Below are positions 40,837 to 58,945 of a stretch of 64,000 nt of DNA, piece by piece. The stretch is taken from positions 1 to 64,000 of the forward strand of contig JAFPBO010000014.1 of assembly GCA_017390475.1 (NCBI GenBank), written 5' to 3'. The stretch's first letter is position 1. Each line of letters opens with the position of its first letter. The stretch comes from Loktanella sp. (GTDB lineage: Bacteria > Pseudomonadota > Alphaproteobacteria > Rhodobacterales > Rhodobacteraceae). The position numbers and the translations under genes were made by a program. The notes under the pieces are model-generated. The model was not told the origin of the DNA. It saw nothing but the letters and a program-made list of their open reading frames with translations, and made no database searches.

Positions 40837-41208
40837 TTACAATGCGATGCGGATGATTGCGAAAACCGCAAAAGCCGCCGCTGCGTAAGACAGACAAATC
40901 ATGCCGATGATCGCGGCCCTGCCTGCCAGACCATGAACATAATCCTCGATCAGGGTTTGCACACCCAGCCGAAAGTGGAAAAAGCCGACCAGCATGGTCA
41001 GAATGGCGACGACAGCGGGAAATGGCCGTTGGTAATAGGCGACCACCTCTTCATAGGGTGCGCCCAGAATAAAGCCGAAGGTGAACACGAAAAACGGGAT
41101 CAGCACCAGCAAAGCCACCGAAGTGACCATCATCTGCCAATGGTGATGGGTGCCCTGCTTGGCAGAGCCCATGCCCATGGCGCGTTTGCGATCTGTCAGA
41201 AATGCCAT
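40837..41208 (-). CDS. sdhD: Succinate dehydrogenase membrane anchor subunit
   Basis: 123 residues with three membrane helices (about 28-50, 64-83, 95-120). The segment FFHFRLGVQTLIEDYVHG is the usual haem/quinone-side motif of SdhD. 12 bp after sdhC. Confidence 0.93.
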   Translation of the reverse strand: MAFLTDRKRAMGMGSAKQGTHHHWQMMVTSVALLVLIPFFVFTFGFILGAPYEEVVAYYQRPFPAVVAILTMLVGFFHFRLGVQTLIEDYVHGLAGRAAIIGMICLSYAAAAFAVFAIIRIAL

Positions 41209-41220
41209 ATCCGATACTCC

Positions 41221-41604
41221 TTACAGCACAATCACGGTGAAAATCGTCAGGATCACTGACAGCACGACCATCATCTGGCCGGCCATCTCGGATTTATCGA
41301 CATCCAGCATGCGGCCGGAATCCCAGACCAGATGACGCAGACCGCCCAATGTGTGATACCACAGCGCCCAGATCGACCCGAACATGACCAGCTTGCCAAA
41401 CCAGCTTCTGATGACGCCATCGGCGATGGCAAAAGCCTCTGGCCCGCTTGCGGCGGCGACGAACCACCACACGATCAAAAGTGCGGCAACGATCAGCGCA
41501 TTGCCGGTGATCCGCACGAGGATGGAGGTGATCGAGGTCCATTGTGGGCGATAAATCGAAAGATGCGGCGAAAGCGGGCGATTGCCCCGGTTCACGTCGG
41601 CCAT
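41221..41604 (-). CDS. sdhC: Succinate dehydrogenase cytochrome b556 subunit
   Basis: 127 residues; the start MADVNRGNRPLSPHLSIYRP follows AAGGGAAG, and the open frame upstream is not used. Three membrane helices. SPHLSIYR-x-Q is the SdhC N-terminal motif, and LWYHTLGGLRHLVWD carries the haem-ligand His84 region and the second His91. It is the first gene of the sdh operon and lies downstream of two GTGATCAC palindromes. Confidence 0.95.
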   Translation of the reverse strand: MADVNRGNRPLSPHLSIYRPQWTSITSILVRITGNALIVAALLIVWWFVAAASGPEAFAIADGVIRSWFGKLVMFGSIWALWYHTLGGLRHLVWDSGRMLDVDKSEMAGQMMVVLSVILTIFTVIVL

Positions 41605-41743
41605 ATTGCTTCCCTTCAGTGGCTTGATGCTGTCCGGCTCGACAGCGCCTTGGCTTCCTACTTGCACCATTCCACCGCCAGAGTCACGCGCGGCACAAGG
41701 GTTTTTCCGCGTGAATATGCCGCGCCCGGCCAGTTTTTTCCAT

Positions 41744-41776
41744 TTGTGATCACGATTTTTTCAGCTGTGATCACAC
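41744..41776. promoter_or_regulatory. Double GTGATCAC operator upstream of sdhC
   Basis: TTGTGATCACGA at 41744-41755 and CTGTGATCACAC at 41765-41776, with centres exactly 21 bp (two helical turns) apart, about 140-170 bp before sdhC. A possible sdhC promoter on the minus strand (TGGAAA at 41742-41737, CATATT at 41719-41714) abuts the first site. The same paired arrangement is upstream of sucC and a single site is at the GntR-family gene. FCD-type GntR proteins typically bind short palindromes of this kind. Confidence 0.75.
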
Positions 41777-41781
41777 CCCCG

Positions 41782-41814
41782 CATCTTCCGAGCAAAAATA
41801 TCCCCGCCGGAGGC
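41782..41814 (-). repeat. Copy 5 of the 33-bp repeat
   Basis: CATCTTCCGAGCA..AAATATCCCCGCCGGAGGC on the plus strand, between mch and the sdhC operator, 20 bp past the mch stop on its strand. Confidence 0.85.
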
Positions 41815-41834
41815 TTGGCATCGCCCCAGCGATG

Positions 41835-42860
41835 TCAAACCGGCATCAAAGCCCAGTAATCAAGGTCGAGCAGCACATCAGGATCATATTTTCCATCCGC
41901 CCCGCGCAAGACACCCGCCTGCCCTTTCGTCGCGACCAGCCGCAAACGGATCGCACCGACACCGGGTGCGGCTGTTTCAGCAATCTCCAGCACCTCGGAC
42001 CAGGCCCGCACCGTATCCCCCGCAAAACAGGGGTTCGCATGCGCGCCGCCATTCAGCGCCACGATCATCTGCGCATTGGCCAGACCATTGAAGGACAAGG
42101 CCCGCGCCAGCGAAATCACATGCCCGCCATAGATCAGCCTTTTGCCATCATCCCGGTTGGTTGCATCGAAATGCACCTTGGCGGTATTCTGCCACAGACG
42201 GGTGGCCAGCATATGCTCGGCTTCTTCAATCGTGACACCATCGACATGGTCGATCACCTCGCCCACCGCATAATCGCGCAAGCGATGCGGTTCACCCGCC
42301 AGCGCGAAATCATAATTGGTGAAATCCAACCCCTGCGGCACGACCAGATCCGACGCCAGCACCACAGCGTCAAGTTCCGGTATCACCGCCCGTGGCGCGG
42401 GTCCCGACCCGCGCTTACGCACCATGACCCAGCGGACATAGGTCAACAACACCTCGCCATGCTGGTTGCGCCCGGTGGTGCGGACCCAGACCACGCCCGA
42501 TGTGCCGTTGGAGTTCTCCTTGATCCCGATCACCTCTGACGTGGCGGTGATCGTATCGCCGGGCCAAAGCGGGGTGATCCAGCGCCCTTCGGCATAGCCA
42601 AGGTTCGCCACGGCATTCAGCGATACATCCGGCACGGTCTTGCCAAAGACAGTGTGAAACGTCACCAGATCATCCAGCGGGCTGAACGGCAAACCGCAGG
42701 ATTGCGCGAATTGGTCAGAGGAATGCAGCGCATGCCGCGCGGGATAAAGCGCGTGATACAGCACCCGCTCCCCACCCGCCACCGTGCGCGGCACCGCATG
42801 TGTGATCACATCACCAACGCCGTAATCCTCGAAAAACCGGCCAGCATTGGTTTTCGTCAT
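41835..42860 (-). CDS. mch: Mesaconyl-CoA hydratase (beta-methylmalyl-CoA dehydratase)
   Basis: 341 residues, double hot-dog MaoC-type protein. The first half starts RFFEDYGVGDVITHAVPRTV and contains QFAQSCGLPFSPLDDLVTFHTVFGKTVPDVSLNAVANLGYAEGRW; the second half has HDF-like YGGHVISLARALSFNGLANA. It interconverts mesaconyl-CoA and beta-methylmalyl-CoA in the ethylmalonyl-CoA pathway. Length and fusion match the Rhodobacter enzyme. It is coupled to the DUF1737 gene by a 4-nt overlap, in the nnrU/mcl2-like run. Confidence 0.92.
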   Translation of the reverse strand: MTKTNAGRFFEDYGVGDVITHAVPRTVAGGERVLYHALYPARHALHSSDQFAQSCGLPFSPLDDLVTFHTVFGKTVPDVSLNAVANLGYAEGRWITPLWPGDTITATSEVIGIKENSNGTSGVVWVRTTGRNQHGEVLLTYVRWVMVRKRGSGPAPRAVIPELDAVVLASDLVVPQGLDFTNYDFALAGEPHRLRDYAVGEVIDHVDGVTIEEAEHMLATRLWQNTAKVHFDATNRDDGKRLIYGGHVISLARALSFNGLANAQMIVALNGGAHANPCFAGDTVRAWSEVLEIAETAAPGVGAIRLRLVATKGQAGVLRGADGKYDPDVLLDLDYWALMPV

Positions 42861-43060
42861 TGCTGGCCCAGTTTCATCTCGGGCGAATAGGGGGTGTCAA
42901 TCTCCTTGGTCACGGCCTGCCCGCAGCGCATCACGCCATTGGCCTGATCAAAGGCATAGGTCGGGCTGCCATAAAGCTCCCAGCCTTTCGACAAAGCGTC
43001 GGACACTTTGTGGCAAAAGGCGGATGTGTCGTCTTCAGTCAGTAAACGGTAGATTTTCAT
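42857..43060 (-). CDS. DUF1737 small protein
   Basis: 67 residues, MKIYRLLTEDDTSAFCHKVSDALSKGWELYGSPTYAF. The DUF1737 pattern (L..D..FC..V...L..GW.L.G.P...) is clear. Small cytoplasmic protein of unknown role. Overlaps the mch start by 4 nt and follows nnrU by 4 bases. Confidence 0.85.
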   Translation of the reverse strand: MKIYRLLTEDDTSAFCHKVSDALSKGWELYGSPTYAFDQANGVMRCGQAVTKEIDTPYSPEMKLGQQ

Positions 43061-43064
43061 CGGA

Positions 43065-43613
43065 TTATCCAAACGGGTTATAGCCAAGCCAGCTGTGAAT
43101 GAGCGCAATGATCACAAAGACCACGACAGTCGCCACAACAGCGGTCACTTCTTTCTTCATCGGCACCACGGGTGGCGGCGTCCAGTCGCGGTTGGCGCGG
43201 TTGATCAGGATCACCTCGACCACGGCCCATGCCAGCAGACCGCCGAACAACACGAAAGACGGCACATCGCCATTGACCAGCAGATGCGCCAATGCCCAGA
43301 CTTTCACGGCAGTCAATTGCGGATGGCGGATTGTGCGGGTGATCCGCGTCTTCGCGCCGCTGGCGGCATAAAGATAGACCGCAAAGATCATCAGCAGATT
43401 GTTGATCCCCGTCATCGCCGGGCTGCGACCCCAGAACACCGCCCCTTCCGCCGCGCGATAGCCAATGACCATCAGCACGATCCCCAGCACCGCACCAACA
43501 GCGACGATGATCTTGCCCTTGTCGCCCATCTGGGCGCGGCTGTCAGGCGCCAGGCGTTTCCAGAAATGCACGGCGGACCACAGAAACAGACCCAGAATAA
43601 GAATGAACATCAA
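43065..43613 (-). CDS. NnrU family membrane protein
   Basis: 182 residues, five or six hydrophobic helices: ILILGLFLWSAVHFWKRL, HPQLTAVKVWALAHLLVNGDVPSFVLFGGLLAWAVVEVI. The R-HPQL-x-W-A-x-AHLL-NGD motif is NnrU/isoprenylcysteine-methyltransferase-like. Originally linked to nitrite/NO metabolism, but no denitrification gene is present here. Overlaps the mcl2-like gene by 4 nt. Confidence 0.88.
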   Translation of the reverse strand: MMFILILGLFLWSAVHFWKRLAPDSRAQMGDKGKIIVAVGAVLGIVLMVIGYRAAEGAVFWGRSPAMTGINNLLMIFAVYLYAASGAKTRITRTIRHPQLTAVKVWALAHLLVNGDVPSFVLFGGLLAWAVVEVILINRANRDWTPPPVVPMKKEVTAVVATVVVFVIIALIHSWLGYNPFG

Positions 43614-44449
43614 CTCTCCAATGCGGCGATGGCGGCGGCTTTGGCCAAGGTCGCCTGTGCGGTGACAATATGCAAGTTCTCAACGATCTTGCCATCGACA
43701 ACGGCCACGCCTTGCCCTGCGGCTTGCGCCTCTTCAAACGCCGCGATCTGGCGGCGCGCCAGCGCGATGTCATCCTCGGTCGGGCCAAAGGCGGCATTGG
43801 TGATCGCGATCTGCGCCGGATGGATCAGCGTCTTGCCGTCAAAGCCCAGATCGCGGCCTTCGGCACATTCGGCGCGCAGCCCGTCCTCATCCTGAAACGC
43901 ATTATAGACACCATCCAGCGCCACGATCCCCGCCGCTTTGGCGGCCAGCAGACACATTTGCAAAGCCATCATCAATGCCGGACGCCCCCGCGACTTGATA
44001 TCCTTGGCCAGATCATTGGTGCCCATCACGAAGCCCGCAATGCGCGGATGCGCGGCGATTTGGCTTGCATTCAGCACGCCCTGCGGGGTTTCCATCATCG
44101 CCCAGATCGGCAGGTCAGGGACCAGAGCGGCCAAAGCATCGACATCCGCCGTGCTGTTGACCTTTGGCAACAGAATCGCATCGCAATCCATCGCCGCGAC
44201 AGCGGCGGCATCGGCCTTGCCCCACTCCGTCTCCAGCCCGTTGATCCGCACGATCCGCTGACGCGGGCCATAGCCGCCGCCTGCCAAAGCAGCGAAAAGC
44301 GTATCACGCGCGGCAATCTTGGCATCGGGGGTGACGGCATCTTCCAGATCGAACAGAATCACATCAACAGGCAGGCCGCGCGCCTTGTCCAACGCCCGAT
44401 CCTTGGAACCGGGAATATAAAGCGCAGAGCGGGTGGGACGGTCATGCAT
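43610..44449 (-). CDS. mcl2: CitE-like malyl-CoA lyase/thioesterase family enzyme, probably (3S)-malyl-CoA thioesterase
   Basis: 279 residues; start MHDRPTRSALYIPGSKDRALDKA after GAGG. The CitE family TIM-barrel motifs are LPVDVILFDLEDAVTPDAK, RINGLETEWGKAD, ILLPKVN, WAMMETPQGVLNA, FVMGTNDLAKDI and FDGKTLIHPAQI. In Rhodobacter the ethylmalonyl-CoA pathway uses Mcl1 (about 318 aa, lyase) and Mcl2 (shorter, thioesterase). The length here, and the neighbourhood of mch, sdh and mdh, favour Mcl2. A lyase function is possible. Confidence 0.78.
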   Translation of the reverse strand: MHDRPTRSALYIPGSKDRALDKARGLPVDVILFDLEDAVTPDAKIAARDTLFAALAGGGYGPRQRIVRINGLETEWGKADAAAVAAMDCDAILLPKVNSTADVDALAALVPDLPIWAMMETPQGVLNASQIAAHPRIAGFVMGTNDLAKDIKSRGRPALMMALQMCLLAAKAAGIVALDGVYNAFQDEDGLRAECAEGRDLGFDGKTLIHPAQIAITNAAFGPTEDDIALARRQIAAFEEAQAAGQGVAVVDGKIVENLHIVTAQATLAKAAAIAALES

Positions 44450-44623
44450 CGAATCTACCTCGCAATAATCTTGCGCGAACATGGGCAGAAACTTGTCGAT
44501 GATTCAACCCCGATCTTGCCGCAATGCAGCACGAAAACCCCGGCGTGGCTTTAACTTTTCCTCAATCTTTGTGGTGTAGATTGGCCCAAAGTCATCAAAA
44601 CCCGCAATGAACGAGGCTTAGAA

Positions 44624-44932
44624 ATGATCAATCACGTCCCTTACGTGTTCCTCGGCATCGCGGCGATGTTCTGGGTCACGCCCCCGGCGCAAGCCGCCAC
44701 TTGCGCCGATCATGGCGTCATCGTGCAGCGACTGGCGGCGATTTATGGCGAAACCCGGCAATCCGCCGCGCGCGACCCTGCCGGCACCATGGTCGAGGTT
44801 TTTGCCGCCAAAGATACCGGCAGCTGGACGATAACGGTAACAGGGCAGGACGCACGGACCTGTCTTGTCGCGGCGGGGCAGGCATTCAACTGGCGCAAGA
44901 CATGGCAGTCCGCGCTGCAAGAACAGGCCTGA
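44624..44932 (+). CDS. Small secreted hypothetical protein
   Basis: 102 residues with a Sec signal (YVFLGIAAMFWVTPPAQAA, cleavage near AQA-ATC). The mature part, about 80 residues, has two cysteines (ATCADHG, RTCLVA) and ends FNWRKTWQSALQEQA. It is a conserved-looking periplasmic protein without a recognised family. Divergent from the mcl2-like gene. Confidence 0.7.
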   Translation: MINHVPYVFLGIAAMFWVTPPAQAATCADHGVIVQRLAAIYGETRQSAARDPAGTMVEVFAAKDTGSWTITVTGQDARTCLVAAGQAFNWRKTWQSALQEQA

Positions 44933-45005
44933 AAATGTGGCGCGACCAGACAGGTATGGGCCACCGCGCACCCCACGCCGATATTCCCGACAAAGCAGAC
45001 AAAAC

Positions 45006-45114
45006 CTTCCCCGCGGGGAAGATCACGCAGCTTGACCGGCGTGGCGGGATACCCGGCAGGATCGACCTTCCCCATGGGAAAGGTCACGAAAACCTTCCCC
45101 GCGGGGAAGGTTTT
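45006..45114. repeat. Cluster of three CCTTCCCCGCGGGGAAGG-type palindromes
   Basis: Copies lie at 45006-45021, 45067-45082 (a CCCATGGG variant) and 45094-45109. The last one extends to a perfect 26-bp palindrome (45089-45114) flanked by AAAA and TTTT. The 293-bp gap between the small secreted protein and the convergent transporter holds no gene. The last copy is well suited as a two-way terminator; a fourth genomic copy is at 30409. Confidence 0.8.
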
Positions 45115-45225
45115 GGATGACGCCTGTCTTCGCCGGCGGCCGACAGGACAGTGACACCAAGGCAGGCAAAATACACTACAGTTCGCCATTGGCAGATCAC
45201 TGGACCTGGACGATCTGAAATGGTT

Positions 45226-45981
45226 TCAGGCCACGGCAACCCAGATCAACCGCAGGCCTGTCGCCACCAGCAACACATAGGTCAATGCGAAAAAGGCGCG
45301 TTCAGGCACCAGCCGATGCGCTTTGACACCAATATAGGCCCCAAGCAGCGCGAAAGGGGCCAGCACCGCGCTGGCCTTCAGCGTTTCGAGCGAGAAAATC
45401 CCCAGATAGGCATAAGGCACCACTTTCATCCAGTTGACCGCCCAGAAAGTTAGGACAGTCGTCGCCTGAAACGCCGTTTTGCTCAGCCCTTGGGACAGCA
45501 GAAAAATCGCCGTCGGCGGCCCGCCCGCATGGCTGACAAAACTGGTGAACCCGCCAACAAGCCCTGCCGCCCAGGCAAAGGGGCGCGAAAACGGCATCTG
45601 CCGCACCGAAAGCCAGCCCAGACTGCGCGCCAGCTGAAACGCCACAAAGGCCAGACAGATCACGCCGATCAGCAGGCGGAACACATCGGCATCGACCAAC
45701 GTATAAAGCACCGCGCCGATGATACAGCCCGGCACCGCACCCTGCATCATCCCCTTGGCCGATGGCCAGTGCCATTGTTTCCAGAACGGGCGCAGGGTCG
45801 CCGCATCGACCAGCATGAACAATGGCAGAATGATCCCCAGCGCCAGGCCCGGCGGGACCACCAGCGCCAGAATCGCCCCGGCGACAAAGGCCGCACCAGA
45901 GCCGAATCCCCCCTTAGAGATGCCGCCAAACATGATCGCAGGCACGCCTACAGCAAAGAAAACCCAGTCGAATACAATCAC
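45226..45981 (-). CDS. TSUP (TauE/SafE) family transporter
   Basis: 251 residues, about 7-8 membrane helices. FGGISKGGFGSGAAFVAGAILALVVPPGLALGIILPLFM and GLVGGFTSFVSHAGGPPTAIFLLSQGLSKTAFQAT are the duplicated TSUP motifs. Anion substrate unknown. It is divergent from mdh; not related closely in sequence to the exporter at 26451. Confidence 0.9.
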   Translation of the reverse strand: MIVFDWVFFAVGVPAIMFGGISKGGFGSGAAFVAGAILALVVPPGLALGIILPLFMLVDAATLRPFWKQWHWPSAKGMMQGAVPGCIIGAVLYTLVDADVFRLLIGVICLAFVAFQLARSLGWLSVRQMPFSRPFAWAAGLVGGFTSFVSHAGGPPTAIFLLSQGLSKTAFQATTVLTFWAVNWMKVVPYAYLGIFSLETLKASAVLAPFALLGAYIGVKAHRLVPERAFFALTYVLLVATGLRLIWVAVA

Positions 45982-46004
45982 CTGTCAGCCCCAAATGCCT
46001 TTTG

Positions 46005-47101
<1,097 letters not shown>

Positions 47102-48097
47102 TCAGCCACCAAGTCTATTGAGGGGGTCGCCACTGGCGGCCCCTTTTTCATGCCTGCCCGTCGCCGCATCAAGACCAGCGCAGGACAGATCGACCGCACC
47201 GAACAGATCCGCGATCATCGGCGCAGGATCGAAGGGCGCATGTAGCAGCAGGCCCTCGCGCGTCAGAATCCGGGCCAGATCCGGCGTCAGCCGTTTCACC
47301 CTGTCATGCACGGCCATCCCACCCTGCGGATCAGCCAGGATCGCATCGATCTGGGCCTGCCGGTGCGGCGATGGTGCCATCCCGCCGTGATGGGCGATCA
47401 TCTCTGCCCGTAGCCGCAATTTACGCAGCCAATGTTGCGGTGTGAGTCCGTCGAAATGGAGCAGCTCTACCCCGGCGATCAATGTTGTCTCGAGGGCATG
47501 TTTCGCCTTCGGCCGGTGGATCGAAATTTCCAGATCGCGGCCGGTGCGGGTGAAGGCTTTGCCATGGGCATGCCCGGCCAGACCGCCGCGTGTCAGCGCG
47601 TAATCGGGGCCGAACAAGGCCTGCCCGGCTTTGGCATCGCCCGTGAAAGGGCGGCGGAAAGCGCCATCAAAGATCGACAAGGCGCGCATGTCGGGCAGAT
47701 AGACCCGCTCGGCCACCGGCACGATGGCGCAATCCATCGCCGAGGTCATGGCGGCCAATGCGGCAGACACCCCGCCCGGCACCCAGAGATATTCATCCGC
47801 ATCGCAATGCAGCAACCAATCCGCCGTGCAGGCGCGATAGGCTTGGGTCGCGTTGTGAACCTGCCGGACCTCGTGTTTGGCCGGGCGGCGGCCCTGCCAA
47901 TGCGCGCCATCACAACGGATCACCTGCACGTTTGCGATGGTTTGCAGCGCTGACGCAGCCGGATCATCGGGCCGGTCAAAGTATAACATCACCTGCGCCG
48001 CGCCCAGATGCAGGTGCCAGGCGACAAAGGCCTGCACCAGTGCAAGCGGTTCGTCCACGGTTGCCACAACAGCCCAACTGGGTGCATCGATGCTCAT
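47102..48097 (-). CDS. Glycosyltransferase family 2-like protein
   Basis: 331 residues. WAVVATVDEPLALVQAFVAWHLHLGAAQVMLYFDRPDD and the metal-binding LLHCDADEYLWVP (D-x-D) match the Glyco_tranf_2_4 group of alphaproteobacteria. Substrate unknown; such genes often act on exopolysaccharide or surface glycan. It is inserted between mdh and sucC on the opposite strand and stops exactly at the mdh stop. Confidence 0.85.
   Translation of the reverse strand: MSIDAPSWAVVATVDEPLALVQAFVAWHLHLGAAQVMLYFDRPDDPAASALQTIANVQVIRCDGAHWQGRRPAKHEVRQVHNATQAYRACTADWLLHCDADEYLWVPGGVSAALAAMTSAMDCAIVPVAERVYLPDMRALSIFDGAFRRPFTGDAKAGQALFGPDYALTRGGLAGHAHGKAFTRTGRDLEISIHRPKAKHALETTLIAGVELLHFDGLTPQHWLRKLRLRAEMIAHHGGMAPSPHRQAQIDAILADPQGGMAVHDRVKRLTPDLARILTREGLLLHAPFDPAPMIADLFGAVDLSCAGLDAATGRHEKGAASGDPLNRLGG
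47123..47148 (+). terminator. Intrinsic terminator of mdh, inside the convergent gene
   Basis: GGGGTCGCC-ACT-GGCGGCCCC, a 9-bp stem (one G-T pair), followed by TTTTT, 21 bp after the mdh stop. It lies within the last codons of the convergent glycosyltransferase gene. Confidence 0.85.
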
Positions 48098-48170
48098 CCT
48101 GTGCTGATATCATTGCCGCGAATCTTTGCAAACGGCGGAAATTTGCCTGCTGCGATGCGTTTTTTGATTT

Positions 48171-48201
48171 TGTGATCACACGTTTTGAACAAGTGATCAC
48201 A
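48171..48201. promoter_or_regulatory. Double GTGATCAC operator upstream of sucC
   Basis: TGTGATCACA (48171-48180) and AAGTGATCACAA (48191-48202), with centres 21 bp apart, exactly the spacing seen upstream of sdhC. About 60 bp downstream is TATGAT (48256-48261) as a likely -10 with a poor -35, fitting an activated promoter. The nearest divergent gene (glycosyltransferase, start 48097) shares the region. Confidence 0.75.
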
Positions 48202-48299
48202 AATGTCGGATAATCCGCGTGTGGTTGAATTTTCAGTTAGAATTGCCAAGTTTTCTATGATCTAGACTGCTGCAACCGAAGTCAAATTGGACATGCCTT

Positions 48300-49493
48300 A
48301 TGAATATCCACGAATACCAGGCCAAAGCATTGCTGCGCAGCTACGGCGCGCCCGTTTCCGACGGTCGCCCCGTCACCCGCGCAGAAGACGCAAAAACCGC
48401 TGCCGGTGAACTTGACGGACCGCTTTGGGTGGTCAAGGCGCAGATCCACGCCGGTGGCCGTGGCAAAGGCAAATTCAAAGAAGCCGATGCTGGCGAAGCA
48501 GGTGGCGTGCGCCTGTGCCGGTCGGTCGAAGAAGCCGCGCAAGAGGCCAAAAAGATGCTGGGCCGCACCTTGGTCACACATCAAACCGGTCCTGCAGGCA
48601 AACAGGTCAACCGTATCTATATCGAAGACGGGTCCGGGATCGAGACCGAACTGTATCTCGCCCTGTTGGTGGATCGCCAGACCAGCCGCATCAGTTTTGT
48701 CGTCTCGACCGAAGGTGGGATGGATATCGAAGAGGTCGCTGCCTCGACCCCCGAAAAAATCCTGTCGTTCAGCGTTGATCCGGCAACGGGTTATCAGCCG
48801 TTCCATGGCCGTCGTGTTGCCTTTACGCTGGGTCTGACCGGCGGGCAGGTGAAACAATGCGTCACCCTGATGGGCCAGCTTTACAAAGCCTTCACCGAAA
48901 AAGACATGGAGATGCTGGAAATCAACCCGCTGATCGTGACCGACAAGGGCGATCTGAAGGTGCTGGATGCCAAAGTATCCTTCGACGGCAATGCGATGTA
49001 TCGCCAGCCCGACATCGCCACCCTGCGTGATGAGACCGAGGAAGATTCCAAGGAACTCGCCGCCAGCAAATACGACCTGAACTATATCGCGCTCGACGGT
49101 GAAATCGGCTGCATGGTGAACGGTGCGGGCCTTGCCATGGCGACGATGGATATCATCAAGCTTTACGGGGCCGAGCCTGCCAACTTCCTTGACGTGGGCG
49201 GTGGCGCGACCAAGGAAAAAGTGACCGAGGCGTTCAAGATCATCACATCTGACCCCAATGTCAAAGGCATCCTTGTCAACATCTTCGGCGGCATCATGCG
49301 CTGCGATGTCATCGCCGAAGGCGTGATCGCTGCGGTGAAAGAGGTCGGTCTGAAAGTGCCGCTGGTCGTGCGTCTGGAAGGCACCAATGTCGAGAAAGGC
49401 AAGGAAATCATCCGTAATTCCGGCCTTGATGTGATCGCTGCCGATGACCTGAAAGATGGCGCGCAGAAGATCGTGAAAGCCGTCAAAGGTTAA
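48300..49493 (+). CDS. sucC: Succinyl-CoA synthetase beta subunit
   Basis: 397 residues; start [25 protein letters not shown]-grasp and CoA-ligase segments: [77 protein letters not shown] and [13 protein letters not shown]. Forms the a2b2 or ab enzyme with SucD and makes NTP while converting succinyl-CoA to succinate. No strong ribosome site is seen. First gene of the suc operon. Confidence 0.98.
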
Positions 49494-49500
49494 ACCGTAG

Positions 49501-49518
49501 GGCGGGGTTCACCCCGCC
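49501..49518 (+). other. Intercistronic hairpin between sucC and sucD
   Basis: GGCGGGGTTCACCCCGCC is a perfect 7-bp stem without a T-run in the 57-bp gap. It may protect or process the mRNA. Confidence 0.6.
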
Positions 49519-49550
49519 GCACCCCCCAGATTTCCCAAGGAGCCACCAAT

Positions 49551-50432
49551 ATGGCCATTCTCGTTAACGAAAATACCCGCGTGATCTGCCAGGGCCTGAC
49601 CGGTTCGCAGGGCACGTTCCATTCCGAACAAGCCATCGCCTATGGCACCAAGATGGTCGGCGGCGTGACCCCCGGCAAAGGCGGCAGCACCCATCTGGAC
49701 CTGCCGGTCTTCAACTCGGTCCATGAAGCCAAGCACGTGACTGAGGCCAATGCGAGCGTGATCTATGTCCCGCCCCCCTTCGCCGCTGACAGCATCATGG
49801 AGGCGATTGACGCCGAGATGGAACTGATCATCTGCATCACCGAAGGCATCCCGGTGCTGGACATGATGCGCGTCAAGCGCGCGCTGGAAGGGTCCAAATC
49901 CCGCCTGATCGGGCCAAACTGCCCCGGTGTCATCACGCCTGACGCCTGCAAGATCGGCATCATGCCCGGCCATATCCACCGTCGCGGGTCGGTCGGTGTT
50001 GTGTCGCGGTCCGGCACGCTGACCTATGAAGCCGTGAAACAGACATCCGATTCCGGTCTGGGCCAGTCCACGGCTGTCGGCATCGGCGGCGATCCGATCA
50101 AAGGGTCCGAGCATATCGATATTCTTGAGATGTTCCTTGCTGATGATGAGACTCATTCGATCATCATGATCGGTGAAATCGGCGGGTCTGCCGAAGAAGA
50201 AGCAGCGCAATTCCTTGCGGATGAGCGTAAAAAGGGCCGTTGGAAACCAACCGCTGGTTTCATCGCGGGTCGCACCGCCCCTCCCGGCCGTCGTATGGGC
50301 CATGCCGGTGCCATTGTGGCAGGCGGCAAAGGCGATGCGGAAAGCAAGATTGAAGCGATGAAATCCGCCGGTATCATCGTGGCCGATAGCCCAGCGACTT
50401 TGGGCGAAGCGGTCTTGAAGGCCATCGGGTAA
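49551..50432 (+). CDS. sucD: Succinyl-CoA synthetase alpha subunit
   Basis: 293 residues after AAGGAG. CoA-binding [63 protein letters not shown] and the phospho-His site RRMGHAGAI. Partner of SucC. Confidence 0.98.
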
Positions 50433-50433
50433 A

Positions 50434-50480
50434 TCGGGGTTCCCCCCGACACCCATTTGCGGCGGGGGCCAGCCCCCGCC
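50434..50480 (+). other. Two intercistronic hairpins between sucD and sucA
   Basis: TCGGGG-TTCC-CCCCGA at 50434-50449 and GGCGGGGGC-CA-GCCCCCGCC at 50461-50480, then GGACGATATTTAAC, which loosely resembles the 33-bp repeat family. These could reduce read-through or protect the upstream sucCD message from 3' decay. Confidence 0.6.
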
Positions 50481-50508
50481 GGACGATATTTAACAAAGGT
50501 CCCCAGCC

Positions 50509-53469
50509 ATGCACGACCATTCCCCCAACGATGTGTTCCACGCTTCCAGCTTTTTGCAGGGGCATAACGCGGCCTATGTGGAACAGCTTTACGCGCGCTA
50601 TGCCGATAATCCCGGGGCGGTCGACGAAAGCTGGCAGGCGTTTTTCCGCAGCCTTGGCGATACAGCCGCCGATGCGCAGGCAGAGGCTGCTGGCCCAAGC
50701 TGGGCGCGCCGCGACTGGCCACCGGTGCCGAATGATGATCTGACCGCCGCACTCGACGGGCAATGGCCTGCGGAACCTGCTGCGGCTGCCGATAAGATCA
50801 AGGCGAAAGCCGCTGAAAAAGGCGTCGGCCTGTCCGAAGAACAGGTGCGCGGTGCTGTGCTGGATTCCCTGCGCGCCTTGATGATCATCCGCGCCTACCG
50901 GATTCGCGGCCATCTGATCGCTGATCTGGACCCACTCGGCATGCGCGAAACCGTGCCGCACCCGGAACTGGACCCGGCCAATTATGGCTTTACCGCCAAG
51001 GATATGGACCGTCCGATTTTCATCGACAACGTGCTGGGTCTGGAAGTCGCGACCATGGCCGAGATCATGGCCATCGTGCAGCGCACCTATTGCGGCACTT
51101 TTGCGCTGCAATATATGCACATCTCCAACCCGGAAGAGGCCGGTTGGCTGAAAGAGCGGATCGAAGGCTACGGCAAGGAGATCAGCTTTACCCAGAACGG
51201 GCGCAAGGCGATCCTGAACTCTCTGGTGCAGGCTGAGGGTTTTGAGAAATTTCTCCACGTCAAATATATGGGGACCAAGCGGTTTGGTCTTGATGGCGGC
51301 GAAAGCCTGATCCCCGCGATGGAACAGATCATCAAACGTGGTGGCCAGTTGGGGATGGAAGATATCGTCATCGGTATGCCACACCGGGGCCGTCTGTCCG
51401 TGCTCGCCAATGTGATGCAGAAACCTTATCGCGCGATTTTCAATGAATTTCAGGGCGGATCGTTCAAGCCAGAGGATGTCGATGGCTCGGGCGATGTGAA
51501 ATACCACCTCGGTGCCTCGAATGACCGCAGCTTTGACGACAACACGGTTCACTTGTCCTTGACCGCCAACCCCAGCCATTTGGAGGCTGTGAACCCGGTC
51601 GTCTTGGGCAAGGTCCGCGCTAAACAGGACCAGAAGAAAGACACCGACAAGACCAAGGTCATGGCGATTCTGCTGCACGGCGATGCCGCATTCGCAGGGC
51701 AAGGCGTGGTTGCCGAAGGTTTCGGCCTGTCCGGTCTGCGCGGGCACCGCACCGGCGGCACCATGCATATCGTCGTGAACAACCAGATCGGTTTCACAAC
51801 CGCCCCGCATTTCAGCCGGTCCAGCCCCTATCCCACCGATATCGCGCTGATGGTCGAAGCGCCGATTTTCCACGTGAATGGCGACGATCCAGAGGCTGTG
51901 GTCCATGCGGCCCGTGTCGCGACCGAATTCCGCCAGAAGTTCCACAAAGATGTGGTGCTGGACATCATCTGCTACCGCCGCTTTGGTCACAACGAAGGCG
52001 ATGAGCCGATGTTCACCAACCCGGTGATGTACAATAAGATCAAGAAGCAAAAGACCACGCTGACGCTGTATACTGAACGTCTGGTCAAGGACGGTCTGAT
52101 CCCCGAAGGCGAGATCGAGGATATGAAAGCCGCGTTTCAGGCCCATCTGAACGAGGAATTCGAGGCCGGCAAAAACTATAAACCCAACAAGGCCGATTGG
52201 CTGGACGGGCGCTGGTCACACCTCGACCGGATGAAGGAAAAGAAATACCAGCGCGGCAAGACAGCGATTTCCGAAGGCGATTTCCTTGCCATCGGCAAGG
52301 CGCTGACGACTGTGCCGGATAATTTCCCGACCCATAAGACCATCGACCGTCTGCGCGACGCCAAGGCGCAGATGTTCGAAAACGGCACCGGCATCGACTG
52401 GGCCACGGGCGAGGCGCTGGCGTTTGGGTCCTTGCTGCTGGAAGGCTACCCTGTCCGCCTGTCCGGTCAGGACAGCACGCGCGGCACGTTCAGCCAGCGG
52501 CATTCGGCCATTATCAATCAGGAAAACGAAGACCGCTATTACCCGCTGAACAATATCCGCGAAGGTCAGGCCAAATACGAAGCCATCGATTCGATGCTGT
52601 CGGAATATGCGGTCCTTGGGTTCGAATATGGCTATTCGCTGGCCGAACCCAATGCGCTGACCCTGTGGGAGGCGCAGTTCGGCGATTTCGCCAATGGTGC
52701 GCAGATCATGTTCGATCAGTTCATTTCGTCGGGCGAAAGCAAATGGTTGCGGATGTCCGGCCTCGTCTGTCTGCTGCCACATGGCTATGAAGGGCAAGGG
52801 CCGGAACATTCCAGCGCGCGTCTGGAACGGTTCCTGACCATGTGTGGCGGTGACAATTGGATCGTCGCCAATTGCACCACGCCTGCGAACTATTTCCACC
52901 TGCTGCGCCGCCAGTTGCACCGCAGCTATCGCAAGCCGCTGATCCTGATGACCCCGAAATCCTTGCTGCGGCACAAACTGGCCGTGTCGAAGAAAGAAGA
53001 ATTCACCACCGGGTCCAGTTTCCACCGCGTTTTGTGGGATGATGCACAATACGGCAATTCCGAAACCAAACTGGCAGCGGATGACAAGATCAAGCGCGTC
53101 GTGATGTGTTCGGGCAAGGTCTATTACGACCTGATCGAAGAACGCGATGCGCGTGGGATCGATGATGTCTATATCCTGCGGTTTGAACAATTCTATCCTT
53201 TCCCCGCCCAATCGGCGATGAAGGAGCTTGAACGGTTCAAAGGCGCGGAAATGGTCTGGTGTCAGGAAGAACCCAAGAACCAGGGTGCCTGGGCCTTTAT
53301 GGAACCGAACCTGGAATGGGTGCTGACCCGGATCAAGGCCAAGCACAGCCGCCCGGTCTATGCTGGCCGCGCCGCCGCTGCCAGCCCGGCCACGGGTCTG
53401 GCCAGCAAGCACAAAGCAGAACAAGAAGCGCTGGTAAATGACACGCTGACCATCAAAGGAACAAAGTAA
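50509..53469 (+). CDS. sucA: 2-oxoglutarate dehydrogenase E1 component
   Basis: 986 residues. N-terminal [29 protein letters not shown], then a thiamine-diphosphate enzyme with [37 protein letters not shown] (ThDP/Mg motif), GHNEGDEP and [19 protein letters not shown]. Decarboxylates 2-oxoglutarate and transfers the succinyl group to SucB. Its stop overlaps the sucB start. Confidence 0.98.
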
Positions 53470-54686
53470 TGACCACCGAAGTCCGCGTCCCCACACTTGG
53501 CGAATCCGTGACCGAGGCGACGATCGCCACATGGTTCAAGAAACCCGGCGATGCCGTGGCCGTCGATGAAATGCTCTGTGAGCTGGAAACCGATAAGGTG
53601 ACGGTCGAAGTGCCAAGCCCTGTGGCTGGTGTGCTGTCCGAAATCGTTGCTGCTGAAGGTGACACTGTCGGCGTTGACGCGCTGCTGGCGCAGATTGCCG
53701 AAGGCGACACTGCCGCAGCGCCAAAGGCCGAGGCACCGAAAGCCGAAAGCAAGCCCGACGCTGCCGCCACCCAGACCGATGCTGGCCCGGAAGAGACCAA
53801 GCCGCGCGATCCGGAAGACGCGCCATCGGCCAAGAAACTGATGGCCGAAAACGACCTGTCTGACGTCAAAGGCTCCGGCAAGGATGGCCGCGTGATGAAA
53901 GAGGATGTGCTGAAAGCACTGACCGCGAAATCCGACGCCCCTGCCCCGGCGGCCACGCCACGCGCGCCGGTCGCCGCCAGCGATGAAGCCCGTGAAGAGC
54001 GCGTCAAGATGACCCGCCTGCGCCAGACCATCGCCAAGCGGTTGAAAGACAGCCAGAACACCGCCGCCATGCTGACTACCTATAACGAGGTCGATATGAC
54101 CGAGGTGATGGCACTGCGCGACGCCTATAAGGACCTGTTCGTCAAGAAACATGGCGTAAAACTGGGCTTCATGTCGTTTTTCACCAAGGCCTGTATCCAT
54201 GCCCTGAACGAAGTGCCCGAAGTGAACGCCGAAATCGACGGCACTGATGTGGTCTATAAAAACTACGTCCATATGGGCATCGCCGCTGGTACGCCCACCG
54301 GTCTTGTCGTGCCGGTGATCCGTGATGCGGACCAGATGAGCTTTGCCGAGATCGAAAAGGCCATCGCCGCGATGGGTGCCAAGGCGCGCGACGGTAAATT
54401 GTCGATGGCGGAAATGCAGGGCGGCACCTTCACCATTTCCAACGGTGGCGTTTATGGCTCGCTGATGTCCTCGCCCATCCTGAACCCGCCGCAATCGGGT
54501 ATCCTTGGCATGCACAAGATCCAGGATCGTCCGATGGCGATTGACGGTCAGGTGGTGATCCGCCCGATGATGTATCTGGCGCTGTCCTATGACCACCGGA
54601 TCGTGGACGGCAAGGGTGCTGTGACCTTCCTTGTGCGCGTGAAAGAAGCGCTGGAAGATCCGCGCCGGTTGTTGATGGATTTGTAG
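53469..54686 (+). CDS. sucB: 2-oxoglutarate dehydrogenase E2 component
   Basis: 405 residues. Lipoyl domain with lipoylated Lys43 in [14 protein letters not shown], an Ala/Pro/Glu-rich linker, peripheral-subunit-binding domain ([31 protein letters not shown]) and catalytic domain ending [16 protein letters not shown]. Dihydrolipoyl succinyltransferase. Confidence 0.98.
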
Positions 54687-54688
54687 TC

Positions 54689-55117
54689 TTGCGAGGAACC
54701 CTGTCGAAATTTTTGCAAATACTAGCTTATGTTGCATCTTTCGTAGGGTTCCTTGCCGTCGCTTGGGCTTTTTTTCCCAACACAGATATCGGGAAAATTG
54801 TGGGCTACTTTGTAGATGGGGAAGACGAATTGGTTTCAATTAAGACAGAGGGCGATATGACAGTTTACGACTGTAGGAGCACTTTGCCGCCATTCACGTT
54901 ACCAAGTGACTTTGTACTTACCCAACAAGAAGCTAGAACGCTCTGTGATTGTGTTTGGGAGGGGCTTTCGAGTGAATCAAAGGATTTCATTAGAACCCGG
55001 CTGTATCCTCGAACACCAGACCCAACCGAGGCAGAAATGCAGGTATATGGTGCCGATTTAGGGCTTCAGCTCAAACGATGTGATGCGATACAATTCAACT
55101 TTGAATTTCGAGGCTAG
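54689..55117 (+). CDS. Orphan membrane-anchored protein between sucB and MAPEG/lpd
   Basis: 142 residues from a TTG start 2 bp after the sucB stop; no ATG or good ribosome site. N-terminal membrane helix (ILAYVASFVGFLAVAWAFF), then a soluble part with DGEDELVSIKTEGDMTVYDCRSTLPPF and LCDCVWEGLSSESKDF. Four cysteines. Base composition and codon use are AT-richer than sucB and lpd, which suggests later insertion into a conserved operon. Not recognised. Confidence 0.6.
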   Translation: MRGTLSKFLQILAYVASFVGFLAVAWAFFPNTDIGKIVGYFVDGEDELVSIKTEGDMTVYDCRSTLPPFTLPSDFVLTQQEARTLCDCVWEGLSSESKDFIRTRLYPRTPDPTEAEMQVYGADLGLQLKRCDAIQFNFEFRG

Positions 55118-55120
55118 AGC

Positions 55121-55531
55121 ATGACCCCCGAACTCACCGTCCTCGCCCTCGCCGGTTTGCTCCAAGGGGTGCAATTCCTCCTGATGGCGATCCCGGCGAA
55201 CCTCGAACTTGGTCCCGGTAAAACCGCCAGCCCGCGTGATCCGGGCCGTCTGGGCAAGCCGCTGATCGAGCAGGTCAGCGTCAAAACCGGCCGCCTGTTC
55301 CGCGCGCTAAATAACCATTTTGAAGGTTTAATACTATTCACGCTGGCCGTTGTCGTCGTTACGCTCGGCGATAAGGCGACGGGTCTGTCTGCGGCCTGCG
55401 CCTGGACCTATCTTGGCGCGCGGGTGCTTTACATCCCCGCCTATTATTTCGGCCTGACCCCCTGGCGGTCGGTGATCTGGATGGTCGGCTTTGCTGCCAC
55501 CATGCTGATGATCATCTCGGCCCTGTTCTGA
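55121..55531 (+). CDS. MAPEG family protein
   Basis: 136 residues, four hydrophobic helices, with the MAPEG region [25 protein letters not shown] (membrane eicosanoid/glutathione-metabolism family) and [14 protein letters not shown] before it. Bacterial members have unknown substrates. It starts 3 bp after the preceding stop and precedes lpd by 19 bp. Confidence 0.88.
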
Positions 55532-55550
55532 AGTCTCAAGGAGTTATCCC

Positions 55551-56939
55551 ATGTCCAGCTATGATGTCATCTTTATCGGCGCAGGCCCCGGCGGCTATGT
55601 CGGCGCGATCCGCGCGGCGCAACTGGGCCTCAAGGTCGGCTGCGTCGAAGGCCGCGAAACGCTGGGCGGCACTTGCCTGAACGTCGGCTGCATCCCGTCC
55701 AAGGCGATGCTGCATGCGACCCATATGCTGCATGAGGCGGAACATAACTTTGCCACGATGGGCCTGAAGGGCAAAGCGCCGAGCGTCGATTGGAAGCAGA
55801 TGCTGTCCTATAAGGATGACACGATTGCGCAGAACACCGGCGGGATCGAGTTTTTGTTCGAGAAGAACAAGGTCGATTGGATCAAAGGCTGGGCGACCAT
55901 TCCCGAGGCGGGCAAGGTCAAGGTCGGCGATGATGTGCATGAGGCGAAACATATCGTCATCGCCAGCGGGTCGCAGGCCGCCAGCCTGCCGGGTGTCGAG
56001 GTCGATGAGAAAACTGTCGTGACCTCCACCGGCGCGCTGGAACTGGGCAAGATCCCGAAAACCATGGTCGTGATCGGCGCAGGCGTGATCGGGCTGGAAC
56101 TTGGGTCGGTCTATGCCCGTCTGGGTGCCGATGTGTCGGTGATCGAATATCTGGACGCGATCACCCCCGGCATGGATGCCGAGGTTGCACGGCAATTCCA
56201 GAAGATGCTGACCAAGCAGGGGCTGAAATTCACCCTTGGGGCGGCGGTGCAGGGTGTGACGGTCAAAGGTGGCAAGGCCACCGTGACCTATAAGCTGCGC
56301 AAGGATGACAGCGAGGAAACGATCACCGCCGACACTGTCTTGGTCGCGACAGGCCGCAAACCCTATACCGAAGGTCTGGGGCTGAAGGAACTGGGTGTCG
56401 AGATGACCGAGCGTGGCCAGATCAAGACCGACAGCAAATATGCAACCAATGTGCCGGGCATCTATGCCATCGGCGACACGATCGCGGGTCCGATGCTGGC
56501 GCATAAGGCCGAAGATGAAGGCATGGCGGTCGCCGAAGGCATCGCCGGGCAGCATCCTCATGTGAATTACAACGTCATCCCCGGTGTGATCTACACCCAC
56601 CCCGAGGTCGCCAATGTCGGCGCGACCGAGGAAATGCTGAAAGAAGAAGGCCGCGCCTATAAGGTCGGCAAATTCCCCTTCATGGGCAATGCGCGGGCCA
56701 AGGCGAATTTTTCGGGTGAAGGTTTCGTGAAAATCCTTGCCGACAAGGAAACCGACCGGATATTGGGCGCGCATATCATCGGGCCGATGGCGGGCGATCT
56801 GATCCATGAAATCTGCGTCGCGATGGAATTCGGCGCCGCAGCAGAGGATCTGGCCCGCACCTGCCACGCCCACCCGACCTATTCCGAGGCAGTGCGCGAA
56901 GCAGCGCTTGCTTGTGGTGACGGCGCGATCCACGCCTGA
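55551..56939 (+). CDS. lpdA: Dihydrolipoyl dehydrogenase (E3)
   Basis: 462 residues. FAD site [17 protein letters not shown], redox disulfide [13 protein letters not shown] (Cys42, Cys47), NAD site [19 protein letters not shown], and the C-terminal [10 protein letters not shown] catalytic His-Glu. Reoxidises lipoamide of the 2-oxoglutarate complex. Ends at a strong terminator. Confidence 0.98.
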
Positions 56940-56962
56940 GCCGATATCGGATTATCTTGACC

Positions 56963-56995
56963 AAAGGCGGCGATCCCGAAAGGATCGCCGCCTTT
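56963..56995 (+). terminator. Intrinsic terminator of the suc-lpd operon
   Basis: AAAGGCGGCGATCC and GGATCGCCGCCTTT form a 14-bp perfect stem with a 5-base loop, ending in TTTT. Confidence 0.95.
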
Positions 56996-57086
56996 TGTAC
57001 GGTTATTCCCGCCTCAAATCACAGACGACCATAACCCCGCCACAATCTATGTCTTTACGTTACGTCACGATTCGTTAAGGGCCAGC

Positions 57087-57584
57087 GTGAATGATGAACA
57101 GGCTGTTGATCGCGGCATTGCTTTGGTGATCCGGCGGGTCAAATCCCTTGTCCGGCGCGGCAGCGCGCCGCTGCGCAAGAAAGCGGCGACACGGACCTTG
57201 TCCGCGATGTGCCATGCCGGCAAATGCGATGGTGTGGTCACCGCAGCAGAGGCGGGCCTGATCCGTGATGCTGCACAACGACTGACGGGCTGGACCTTTG
57301 CCGCATCGGACATCCTGCAGCTTTCGGATCGGATCACCACCAACCTGACGGCGCATGATTTCATCGCATTCAGACATGGGCTGCGCGACCACGAGAAAGA
57401 CGTCATGATGGGCAGCGTGTTGAGGATCGCTATCAGACATGGCCGGATTTCGCAGGCGATATATGAATTTATCACCGGTTTGGCCTATGGCATCGGGATG
57501 CCCGGCCCGGATGTCCGCCACGCGCTGGATCTGGCGATTGCGGATCTGGACCGGCGGGTTAGCTGCGATCAGGTCAGCCTTTGA
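57087..57584 (+). CDS. TerB-like helical protein
   Basis: 165 residues. The segment LSAMCHAGKCDGVVTAAEAGLIRDAAQRL resembles the TerB helical core, with the acidic pair and D-G-x-V-x-x-x-E pattern. It may be a tellurite-resistance-like or DUF533-type protein. It is convergent with the GntR gene and overlaps its 3' end by 11 nt. Function uncertain. Confidence 0.55.
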   Translation: MNDEQAVDRGIALVIRRVKSLVRRGSAPLRKKAATRTLSAMCHAGKCDGVVTAAEAGLIRDAAQRLTGWTFAASDILQLSDRITTNLTAHDFIAFRHGLRDHEKDVMMGSVLRIAIRHGRISQAIYEFITGLAYGIGMPGPDVRHALDLAIADLDRRVSCDQVSL

Positions 57585-58224
57585 GCATCCGCAACCCTTG
57601 CGTGACATCGGTGCGGATCGCCAGCCGCAGGCCGGGTTCGTCGCCGGCCTTTAGCGCACCGAGAATCAGCTTGTGATGATAAGGCGGGTCCTTGCGGTTC
57701 AATCGCCCGTAAAGCGCGCGCATCGTGGGGCCAAGTTGCAGCCAGACCGTTTCGGTCATCGCCAGCATGGCAGGGGCCTGCGCGCGCAGGTAAAGCATGC
57801 GGTGAAATTCAAGGTTCATGCGGATATAGCCAGAGGCATCATGGCGCGCGACCATCTGGCTGACGCCTTGGTTGATGGCTTCCAGCCGGTCGATCAGAGC
57901 AAAGTGGGCACGCGGCAAAGCGCGCGAGGCCAGTTCTGGTTCCAGCAACGCGCGTAACGTCGCCAATTCCTCGATCCGTTCATTGGTCAGCGCGGGGGTG
58001 GAGACGCGGCCAGAGGACGACAGAAACAATGCGCCTTCCGCGACCAGCCTGCGCACAGCCTCGCGCGCGGGGGTCATGGAGACGGCGTAAGTCTTGCCGA
58101 TGCCGCGCAGCGTCAATGCCTCGCCTGGGCCGATTTCGCCATGCATGATCTGCGTGCGCAAGGCCCGGTAGACCCGTTCATGGGCAGAGGTGGTTGAATC
58201 GACGGGGCGGGGCTGGATCAGCAT
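57574..58224 (-). CDS. GntR family transcriptional regulator, FCD type
   Basis: 216 residues from ATG 58224. N-terminal winged helix (HERVYRALRTQIMHGEIGPGEALTLRGIGKTYAVSMTPAREAVRRLVAEGAL) and C-terminal FCD effector domain (ALLEPELASRAL, YIRMNLEFHRMLYLRAQAPAMLAM, HHKLILGALKAGDEPGLRLAI), with Asp/His metal ligands partly kept. A GTGATCAC palindrome lies 10-17 bp upstream of its ATG, with no clear Shine-Dalgarno, so the message may be leaderless. The same palindrome pairs precede sdhC and sucC, so this is the best candidate for their regulator. I recall a GntR-type regulator AkgR described in Rhodobacter as controlling TCA genes; identity not verified here. Confidence 0.88.
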   Translation of the reverse strand: MLIQPRPVDSTTSAHERVYRALRTQIMHGEIGPGEALTLRGIGKTYAVSMTPAREAVRRLVAEGALFLSSSGRVSTPALTNERIEELATLRALLEPELASRALPRAHFALIDRLEAINQGVSQMVARHDASGYIRMNLEFHRMLYLRAQAPAMLAMTETVWLQLGPTMRALYGRLNRKDPPYHHKLILGALKAGDEPGLRLAIRTDVTQGLRMLKG

Positions 58225-58233
58225 GGATGATAT

Positions 58234-58241
58234 GTGATCAC
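58234..58241. promoter_or_regulatory. Single GTGATCAC palindrome at the GntR-family gene start
   Basis: TATGTGATCACAAAC in the 31-bp gap between the GntR start and the divergent-side YgjP-type gene end, centred 13 bp upstream of the ATG. Placement over the expected promoter fits autorepression. Unlike the sdhC and sucC operators it is single. Confidence 0.65.
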
Positions 58242-58255
58242 AAACAGCGCCTTGG

Positions 58256-58945
58256 TCAATCGTCGAAACGCAGCCGGTGCAGGGTTTCACCGTGATCGCG
58301 CAACCATTTGCGATGCACAGCGTAGTCGGGACATAGATGGGCGACGATATTCCAGAAGGCGGGCGCATGATTCATTTCGCGCAGATGCGCCACCTCATGG
58401 GCTGCGACGTAATCCAGTACCGCAGGCGGGGCCATGATCAGCCGCCAGGAATACATCAGCACGCCTTTGCTGGAACAGGACCCCCAGCGCGACCGTGTGT
58501 CCCTGATCGACAATCTGGCATAGCTGACGCCCAGCGTCGCTGCATGCCGGTCTGACGCCTCGGCCAGCGCGTCCCGCGCCATCGCCCGCAGCCGGGCCCG
58601 GATGGCGGCACAGGCATTGCGATTGGCAGGCACCTCGATCCGGTCGTCCAGCAGCCGGACCCGCAGCCCCGCCCCCTGCACCACCGTCAGTGCCCTGCCC
58701 TGCACCGGCACGACACTGCCAATGCCGATCTGTTCGGCGGGAACCATCTGCCCCAGATGCCCGCGCAGCCAGCTTTCCTTTTCGCGCAGAAAGGCGATTC
58801 CCTCGCGTTCGGGGGCGTTGACCGGCATTGTCAGGGTCACGCGCCCGTCCAGCCGCGAGATCCGCAGCGACAGACGCCGCGCCTGGGCCGATTTGCGCAA
58901 TGTCACATCAATCGGGGGGTTGCCATGCAGCGTGTGACGGCCCAT
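58256..58945 (-). CDS. YgjP-type (DUF45) zinc metallopeptidase
   Basis: 229 residues. The zinc motif is DYVAAHEVAHLREMNHAPAFW (HExxH plus a later His). TRSRWGSCSSKGVLMYSWRLIMAP is the family region just before it. A protease of the SprT/YgjP group with unknown substrate. Confidence 0.92.
   Translation of the reverse strand: MGRHTLHGNPPIDVTLRKSAQARRLSLRISRLDGRVTLTMPVNAPEREGIAFLREKESWLRGHLGQMVPAEQIGIGSVVPVQGRALTVVQGAGLRVRLLDDRIEVPANRNACAAIRARLRAMARDALAEASDRHAATLGVSYARLSIRDTRSRWGSCSSKGVLMYSWRLIMAPPAVLDYVAAHEVAHLREMNHAPAFWNIVAHLCPDYAVHRKWLRDHGETLHRLRFDD

Follow-up and report, generated by a model that had tools for sequence, protein, structure and literature searches.

The closest described counterpart of the locus reported here is the regulon of AkgR of Rhodobacter (Cereibacter) sphaeroides, a regulator that we take to be RSP_0981; a second regulator that enters the comparison, RSP_1663, is presumably CceR. 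Our subject is a GntR/FCD transcription factor gene together with the GTGATCAC palindromes that recur before it and before two energy-metabolism operons, sdh and suc, in a stretch of 64,000 nucleotides from Loktanella sp. (contig JAFPBO010000014.1, positions 1 to 64,000; this whole stretch is hereafter the window). In excerpts of PMC4344238, RSP_0981 is a member of the GntR family with a predicted role in regulating the genes of succinyl-CoA synthetase, of succinate dehydrogenase, and of 2-oxoglutarate dehydrogenase (suc, sdh, and kgd) in R. sphaeroides, and the available text of PMC6365646 counts GTGATCAC among the sites of AkgR, a transcriptional activator. These statements fit the AkgR system that an earlier note on this DNA had brought up when it proposed a GntR-centered tricarboxylic acid (TCA) cycle regulon. 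The target set and the description as an activator come from papers on R. sphaeroides, and would extend to the window by analogy.

Other described regulators match less well. PS417_07240 of Pseudomonas simiae is GntR-like and has a proposed GTGATCAC binding site at positions -47 to -40 relative to its own start codon, but it differs from AkgR in being 32% identical to it, in its proposed control of deoxyribonate oxidation, and in having one palindrome described (PMC6365646, in part). RSP_1663, of the LacI family, is predicted at sdh and mdh through a GTT-N6-8-AAC inverted repeat (PMC4344238, in part), so that it shares sdh as a target with AkgR but differs in protein family and motif. The accessible portion of PMC11323563 is on CceR and has AkgR in its reference list alone, as do those of PMC4419725, PMC7471390, and PMC8557541; the portion of PMC4494728 available is without GTGATCAC, and a literature search on paired FCD operators gave no match.

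The most direct comparison is with G051, an R. sphaeroides-like genome whose PufM matches a reference PufM sequence with 100% identity across 302 residues. The window regulator and its G051 orthologue share 77% identity, and G051 has exact 21-bp pairs of GTGATCAC at sucC and sdhC, as does the window. The G051 orthologue is encoded ~0.75 kb beyond sdhB, which fits the position of RSP_0981 near sdh (RSP_0974-6) in excerpts of PMC4344238, and its nearest named relative among the matches listed is from Cereibacter ovatus (94%). The identity, the pairs, and the proximity to sdhB together indicate that what the window carries is most likely an AkgR regulon from a different family member. Unlike the G051 gene, the window akgR follows lpd instead of lying beyond sdhB, and is preceded by a GTGATCAC site.

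We therefore favor, with a probability of roughly 0.88, the explanation that the window contains the AkgR regulon of a Rhodobacterales bacterium, including activation from the pairs and autorepression. Dimers of the protein encoded at 57574-58224 would recognize GTGATCAC, or TTGTGATCACAAA in its extended form. Two such dimers would occupy each pair, at sdhCDAB and at sucCD-sucAB-lpd; their 21-bp separation corresponds to two turns of the helix and would place both on the same DNA face, upstream of the promoter, from which they would activate the succinyl-CoA/succinate part of the TCA cycle. At the single site before the regulator's own gene, a bound dimer would block the akgR promoter and thereby provide negative feedback. 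The features central to this explanation are as follows (no strand is assigned to operators).

41746..41774: candidate paired operators GTGATCAC-N13-GTGATCAC upstream of sdhC; the same pair is at sdhC in other family genomes
48172..48200: candidate paired operators GTGATCAC-N13-GTGATCAC upstream of sucC, exact pair, 99 nt to the ATG
58234..58241: candidate operator consisting of one GTGATCAC, 9 bp 5' of the akgR start codon
57574..58224, minus strand: akgR orthologue, GntR/FCD transcription factor of 216 aa (Pfam GntR 3e-13, FCD 9e-18)

Paired candidate operators before sdhC and sucC

The window contains 10 copies of GTGATCAC, compared with a mean of 1.02 and a maximum of 4 in 100 shuffles. 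Five are outside coding sequence, at 41746, 41767, 48172, 48193, and 58234, and these repeated sites before two operons and a regulator gene are real; the remaining five (4852, 23842, 30325, 39083, and 42802) are inside long open frames, where they are translated V-I-T, and we accept codon usage as their explanation. The positions, the exact 21-bp pairing at sdhC and sucC, and the lack of further noncoding copies in the window are all as the earlier note had described them. Across the 4.13-Mb genome there are 193 copies of GTGATCAC and two exact 21-bp pairs, those at 41746-41774 and 48172-48200, whereas 0.009 would be expected by chance from 193 sites if positions were uniform. With up to three mismatches allowed, the pair scan gives 104 places including the two exact ones, against 2 for the reversed pattern; one of the 104 has a single mismatch and is in a coding frame as judged by eye.

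An extended ten-letter form, TGTGATCACA, has 6 copies in the 4.13 Mb, and 4 of these fall within 41766-58242, at sdhC, sucC, the GntR gene, and the mesaconyl-CoA hydratase coding sequence. The last of these, at 42801, was set aside as an operator, as it forms V-I-T codons of that gene. The two distant copies are inside a metallophosphoesterase-like frame (L129) and just past a cobalamin-type methyltransferase frame (L130), both named by eye, and neither neighborhood has the look of a TCA gene; these were also rejected.

Pairing is a property of the family at large. Of 295 family genomes, sampled at about one genome for each genus, 249 contain one or more exact 21-bp pairs, and the reversed-pattern control has 0. 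The earlier note had raised the prospect that the pair might be widespread at non-TCA intergenic sites; all 44 of the exact family pairs with checked neighbors precede sdhC, sucC, sucA, or fumC. Thirty-nine of these loci (two from the window, two from G051, 30 from the family pair search, and five from a search of the class) are at sdhC (17), sucC (20), sucA (1, L036), and fumC (1, L032; identified by Pfam), and the other five, fetched for other reasons, are at sucC (L094) and sdhC (L099, L106, L143, and L194). The fumC example (L032:1501-1529, in G042) is a third exact pair and is upstream of a TCA gene outside the window's set.

Other spacings are less common: those of 22 to 42 bp, 21 in all, are together represented in 35 of the 295 genomes; spacings below 21 bp were scanned in G051. 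A second spacing class was considered, as 4 of the 30 loci fetched for a spacing other than 21 are at sdhC or sucC (L094, L099, L100, and L106), and was rejected: three of the four also carry a 21-bp pair, and L100 (22 bp) alone substitutes for one. Triple operators at 21+21 bp in G135, G191, and G285 account for three of the 35 genomes, and that of G285 (L094:1501-1550) is upstream of sucC. A further family member with a 2.6-Mb genome, G265 (L222, L223, and L224), has many irregularly spaced copies of GTGATCAC, some in clusters of three to five, with 8 close pairs at 22-42 bp and 2 exact 21-bp pairs.

Beyond the family, a class search found exact pairs in 2 of 380 genomes; five family genomes were within the class search, four of them with the pair. 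Of the two outside pairs, L136 falls within a long open frame, and L135:992-1020 (in G440, of the same class and another family) is flanked by a TonB-dependent receptor gene and by a GntR/FCD gene whose product is 29% identical to the window regulator. The L135 location, beside a distant GntR/FCD gene, hints independently that proteins of this class read the GTGATCAC operator, and suggests a recurrence of the paired operator alongside other GntR proteins.

The arrangement of the pairs relative to their promoters bears on the sign of regulation. We aligned 32 pairs (17 at sucC and 15 at sdhC, with the window and G051 counted), and their outer flanks have T before in 28 and AAA after in 30, 25, and 23; the spacer is mostly A+T at its center (62 to 78% over the seven central positions), and the pairs precede the start codon by 96 to 191 nt. 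At sdhC, the near operator and the ATG are 107 to 191 nt apart, and GTGAC(A/T) is at +58/+59 from the near operator in 12 of 15 promoters and at +48 in one. The window has the following version.

41682..41687, minus strand: GTGACT, putative -35-like sdhC promoter element, 58 nt from the near operator

Among 24 sucC promoters, 19 have T at +48 and 17 at +47, and the gap between operator and ATG is 106-113 nt in 18, 95-101 nt in 5, and 134 in one. We read this arrangement as suggesting activation from upstream with helical phasing. The alternative that AkgR acting at the paired sites represses sdh and suc, with an effector relieving the repression, draws on the fact that known FCD-type GntR proteins are mostly repressors. 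We consider it unlikely, in that the 32 pairs are well upstream of the start codons and, at sdhC, precede the conserved element by about 58 nt rather than covering it, and that AkgR is termed a transcriptional activator in the available part of PMC6365646.

The regulator and its co-occurrence with the pair

Elsewhere in its genome, the regulator has no close paralogue; 11 additional GntR-type hits were obtained at E values up to 1, the best-scoring of them 28% identical and a partial one 32% identical. Recognition-helix residues S49, M50, T51, P52, and R54 are identical in 110 or 111 of 111 pooled sequences, with the window counted. In the metal-binding subgroup of FCD domains, the ligands are D/N, H, H, and H. 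The corresponding positions of the window protein, mapped by eye, are N137, H141, H184, and D206; these are invariant (111/111), with the last ligand being Asp in place of the usual His, so that the full metal-ligand set is absent and the effector site may be unusual. The best sequence match among solved structures is McbR of Escherichia coli (PDB 4p9f; E = 4.6e-18), which is distant and has a different role.

A strong regulator orthologue, defined by an E value below 1e-60 that was set after viewing the match list, is present in 265 of the 295 family genomes. The exact pair occurs in 242 of these 265, compared with 7 of the 30 without one (counted by hand; Fisher p = 9e-16, with relatedness ignored), and the proposed link between the GntR gene and the sites thus holds over the family sample.

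This bears on the possibility that another factor, either a GntR paralogue or RSP_1663, binds GTGATCAC and that the nearby GntR gene is a bystander. The further GntR-type hits in the genome offer candidates, and RSP_1663 is a predicted regulator of sdh and mdh (PMC4344238, in part). However, the motif predicted for RSP_1663 in the same excerpts is GTT-N6-8-AAC and not GTGATCAC, the pair tracks the window GntR protein across genomes and a site is present at its own gene, and the sole outside-family pair that is not in an open frame adjoins another GntR/FCD gene; a bystander role is thus very improbable. Chance or composition effects around GATC, to which the 193 genomic copies and the V-I-T codons of the five extra window copies could be ascribed, are scarcely credible for the pairs, given the two exact pairs seen against 0.009 expected. 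They are refuted by the conservation of both location and spacing, seen in 249 of the 295 genomes and in none with the reversed control.

The regulator's own site and the gene context

Immediately upstream of the window akgR, the operator is preceded by a promoter-like box.

58255..58259, minus strand: TTGAC box, putative -35 element, with the operator 13 nt and the ATG 35 nt downstream

The earlier note had included the site at 58234 among the targets of the regulator, and the site is real but restricted to certain lineages. Of the 29 other closest orthologue loci, 22 have it, with TTGAC-N13-GTGATCAC in 19 of the 29 and N12 in one more, whereas it occurs in 16 of the 80 named loci nearest the G051 protein (12 with N13 and 4 with N15). 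Ruegeria marina (L210) also carries the site before its akgR. Both sets were ranked by similarity and are not random draws, and at least two of the 80 named loci (L212 and L219) seem to belong to the first genome set. The TTGAC match is partly the stop codon of the upstream YgjP-like gene in many loci, but the box is kept where that gene ends elsewhere (L062, L063, L065, and L066). Since TTGAC starts 35 nt ahead of the ATG and inspection by eye shows no ribosome site, the akgR mRNA may be leaderless, and the single operator between the -35-like box and the start codon suggests autorepression. The recognition-helix core is alike in all 111 sequences, and loss or gain of the site, rather than a changed specificity, would explain the difference between lineages.

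The note's degenerate operator near mdh did not stand up. It is GTGATCTG at 46007-46014, with 2 mismatches, and among the mdh upstream regions of relatives (14 distinct; 15 rows, in which L074 and L076 are one gene and L022, L034, and L038 are shorter than 200 nt), a site with 0 or 1 mismatch is in L029 alone. We rejected mdh as a target through this copy because the site is unconserved in relatives.

The genes of the cluster and its neighbors are as follows.

37573..38352, minus strand: sdhB (Pfam Fer2_3 and Fer4)
39010..40815, minus strand: sdhA (Pfam FAD_binding_2 and Succ_DH_flav_C)
40837..41208, minus strand: sdhD (Pfam Sdh_cyt)
41221..41604, minus strand: sdhC, first gene of sdhCDAB (Pfam Sdh_cyt; start from the conserved N-terminus)
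46139-47101: mdh
48300..49493, plus strand: sucC (Pfam ATP-grasp_2 and Ligase_CoA)
49551..50432, plus strand: sucD (Pfam CoA_binding and Ligase_CoA)
50509..53469, plus strand: sucA, 2-oxoglutarate dehydrogenase E1 (Pfam E1_dh and OxoGdeHyase_C)
53469..54686, plus strand: sucB, E2 (Pfam 2-oxoacid_dh)
55551..56939, plus strand: lpd, E3 (Pfam Pyr_redox_2 and Pyr_redox_dim)
58256..58945, minus strand: YgjP-like metallopeptidase, upstream neighbor of akgR (Pfam YgjP-like)

In the window, sucAB and lpd are on the same strand and 3' of sucCD, without a GTGATCAC of their own, and in one relative (L036) an exact pair stands directly before sucA. A YgjP-like gene is near the akgR orthologue in 30 of 30 loci, with the window counted. 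Far from the cluster, a long frame at 4587-6365 (minus strand) has an N-terminus resembling a serine recombinase by eye, and is possibly a mobile-element gene.

A probable AkgR regulon across the family

Several observations weigh against an AkgR regulon of paired activating sites and a self-repressing one. The name AkgR comes from citing papers and its identity with RSP_0981 is presumed, and no C. sphaeroides-named record is among the best 80 named loci listed for the G051 regulator. The region upstream of akgR in G051 is without GTGATCAC. At the promoters, the GTGAC element is absent in 2 of 15 sdhC cases, the window sucC promoter (99 nt, in the shorter group) lacks T at both +48 and +47, and the -10 boxes are weak by eye.

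The co-occurrence has exceptions of both sorts, with the exact pair absent in 23 of the 265 regulator-bearing genomes and present in 7 of the 30 without a strong orthologue, and several of these are incomplete assemblies. Among the genomes with a pair and no strong orthologue, G096, G264, and G273 are 73 to 77% complete and G033 is 74% complete with a weaker orthologue match (E = 9.5e-56), and G019, G114, and G256 are 91 to 100% complete. A search of the 23 pair-less genomes with up to two mismatches gave one best locus each for 22; 18 of these near-pairs sit elsewhere than sdhC or sucC, and the other four are one-mismatch pairs at sdhC (L110 and L125) and sucC (L117 and L124).

The co-occurrence, the TCA neighbors, and the AkgR papers nonetheless support a TCA regulon centered on the GntR protein, with binding predicted. 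The core of this regulon is already published for a relative, R. sphaeroides; the strict 21-bp pairing throughout the family, the phase relation to the promoter, and the lineage-bound site at the regulator's own gene are the less familiar elements added here. We give even odds to the fuller model, in which AkgR would be, in most of the family, a phase-locked double-dimer activator with operators two turns apart and ~48 or 59 nt from the promoter, and, in the window's lineage, also a self-repressor acting through a single site at an apparently leaderless promoter, an arrangement rare around R. sphaeroides.

These findings tie a prediction made for R. sphaeroides to a rule over most of the family, namely that 21-bp operator pairs mark the AkgR TCA operons, and they offer the pair as a simple and testable operator for central carbon control in these bacteria. 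They also predict a feedback loop that seems to be missing in the model species; if activation from the pairs and self-repression are both true, the model organism would not have revealed it.

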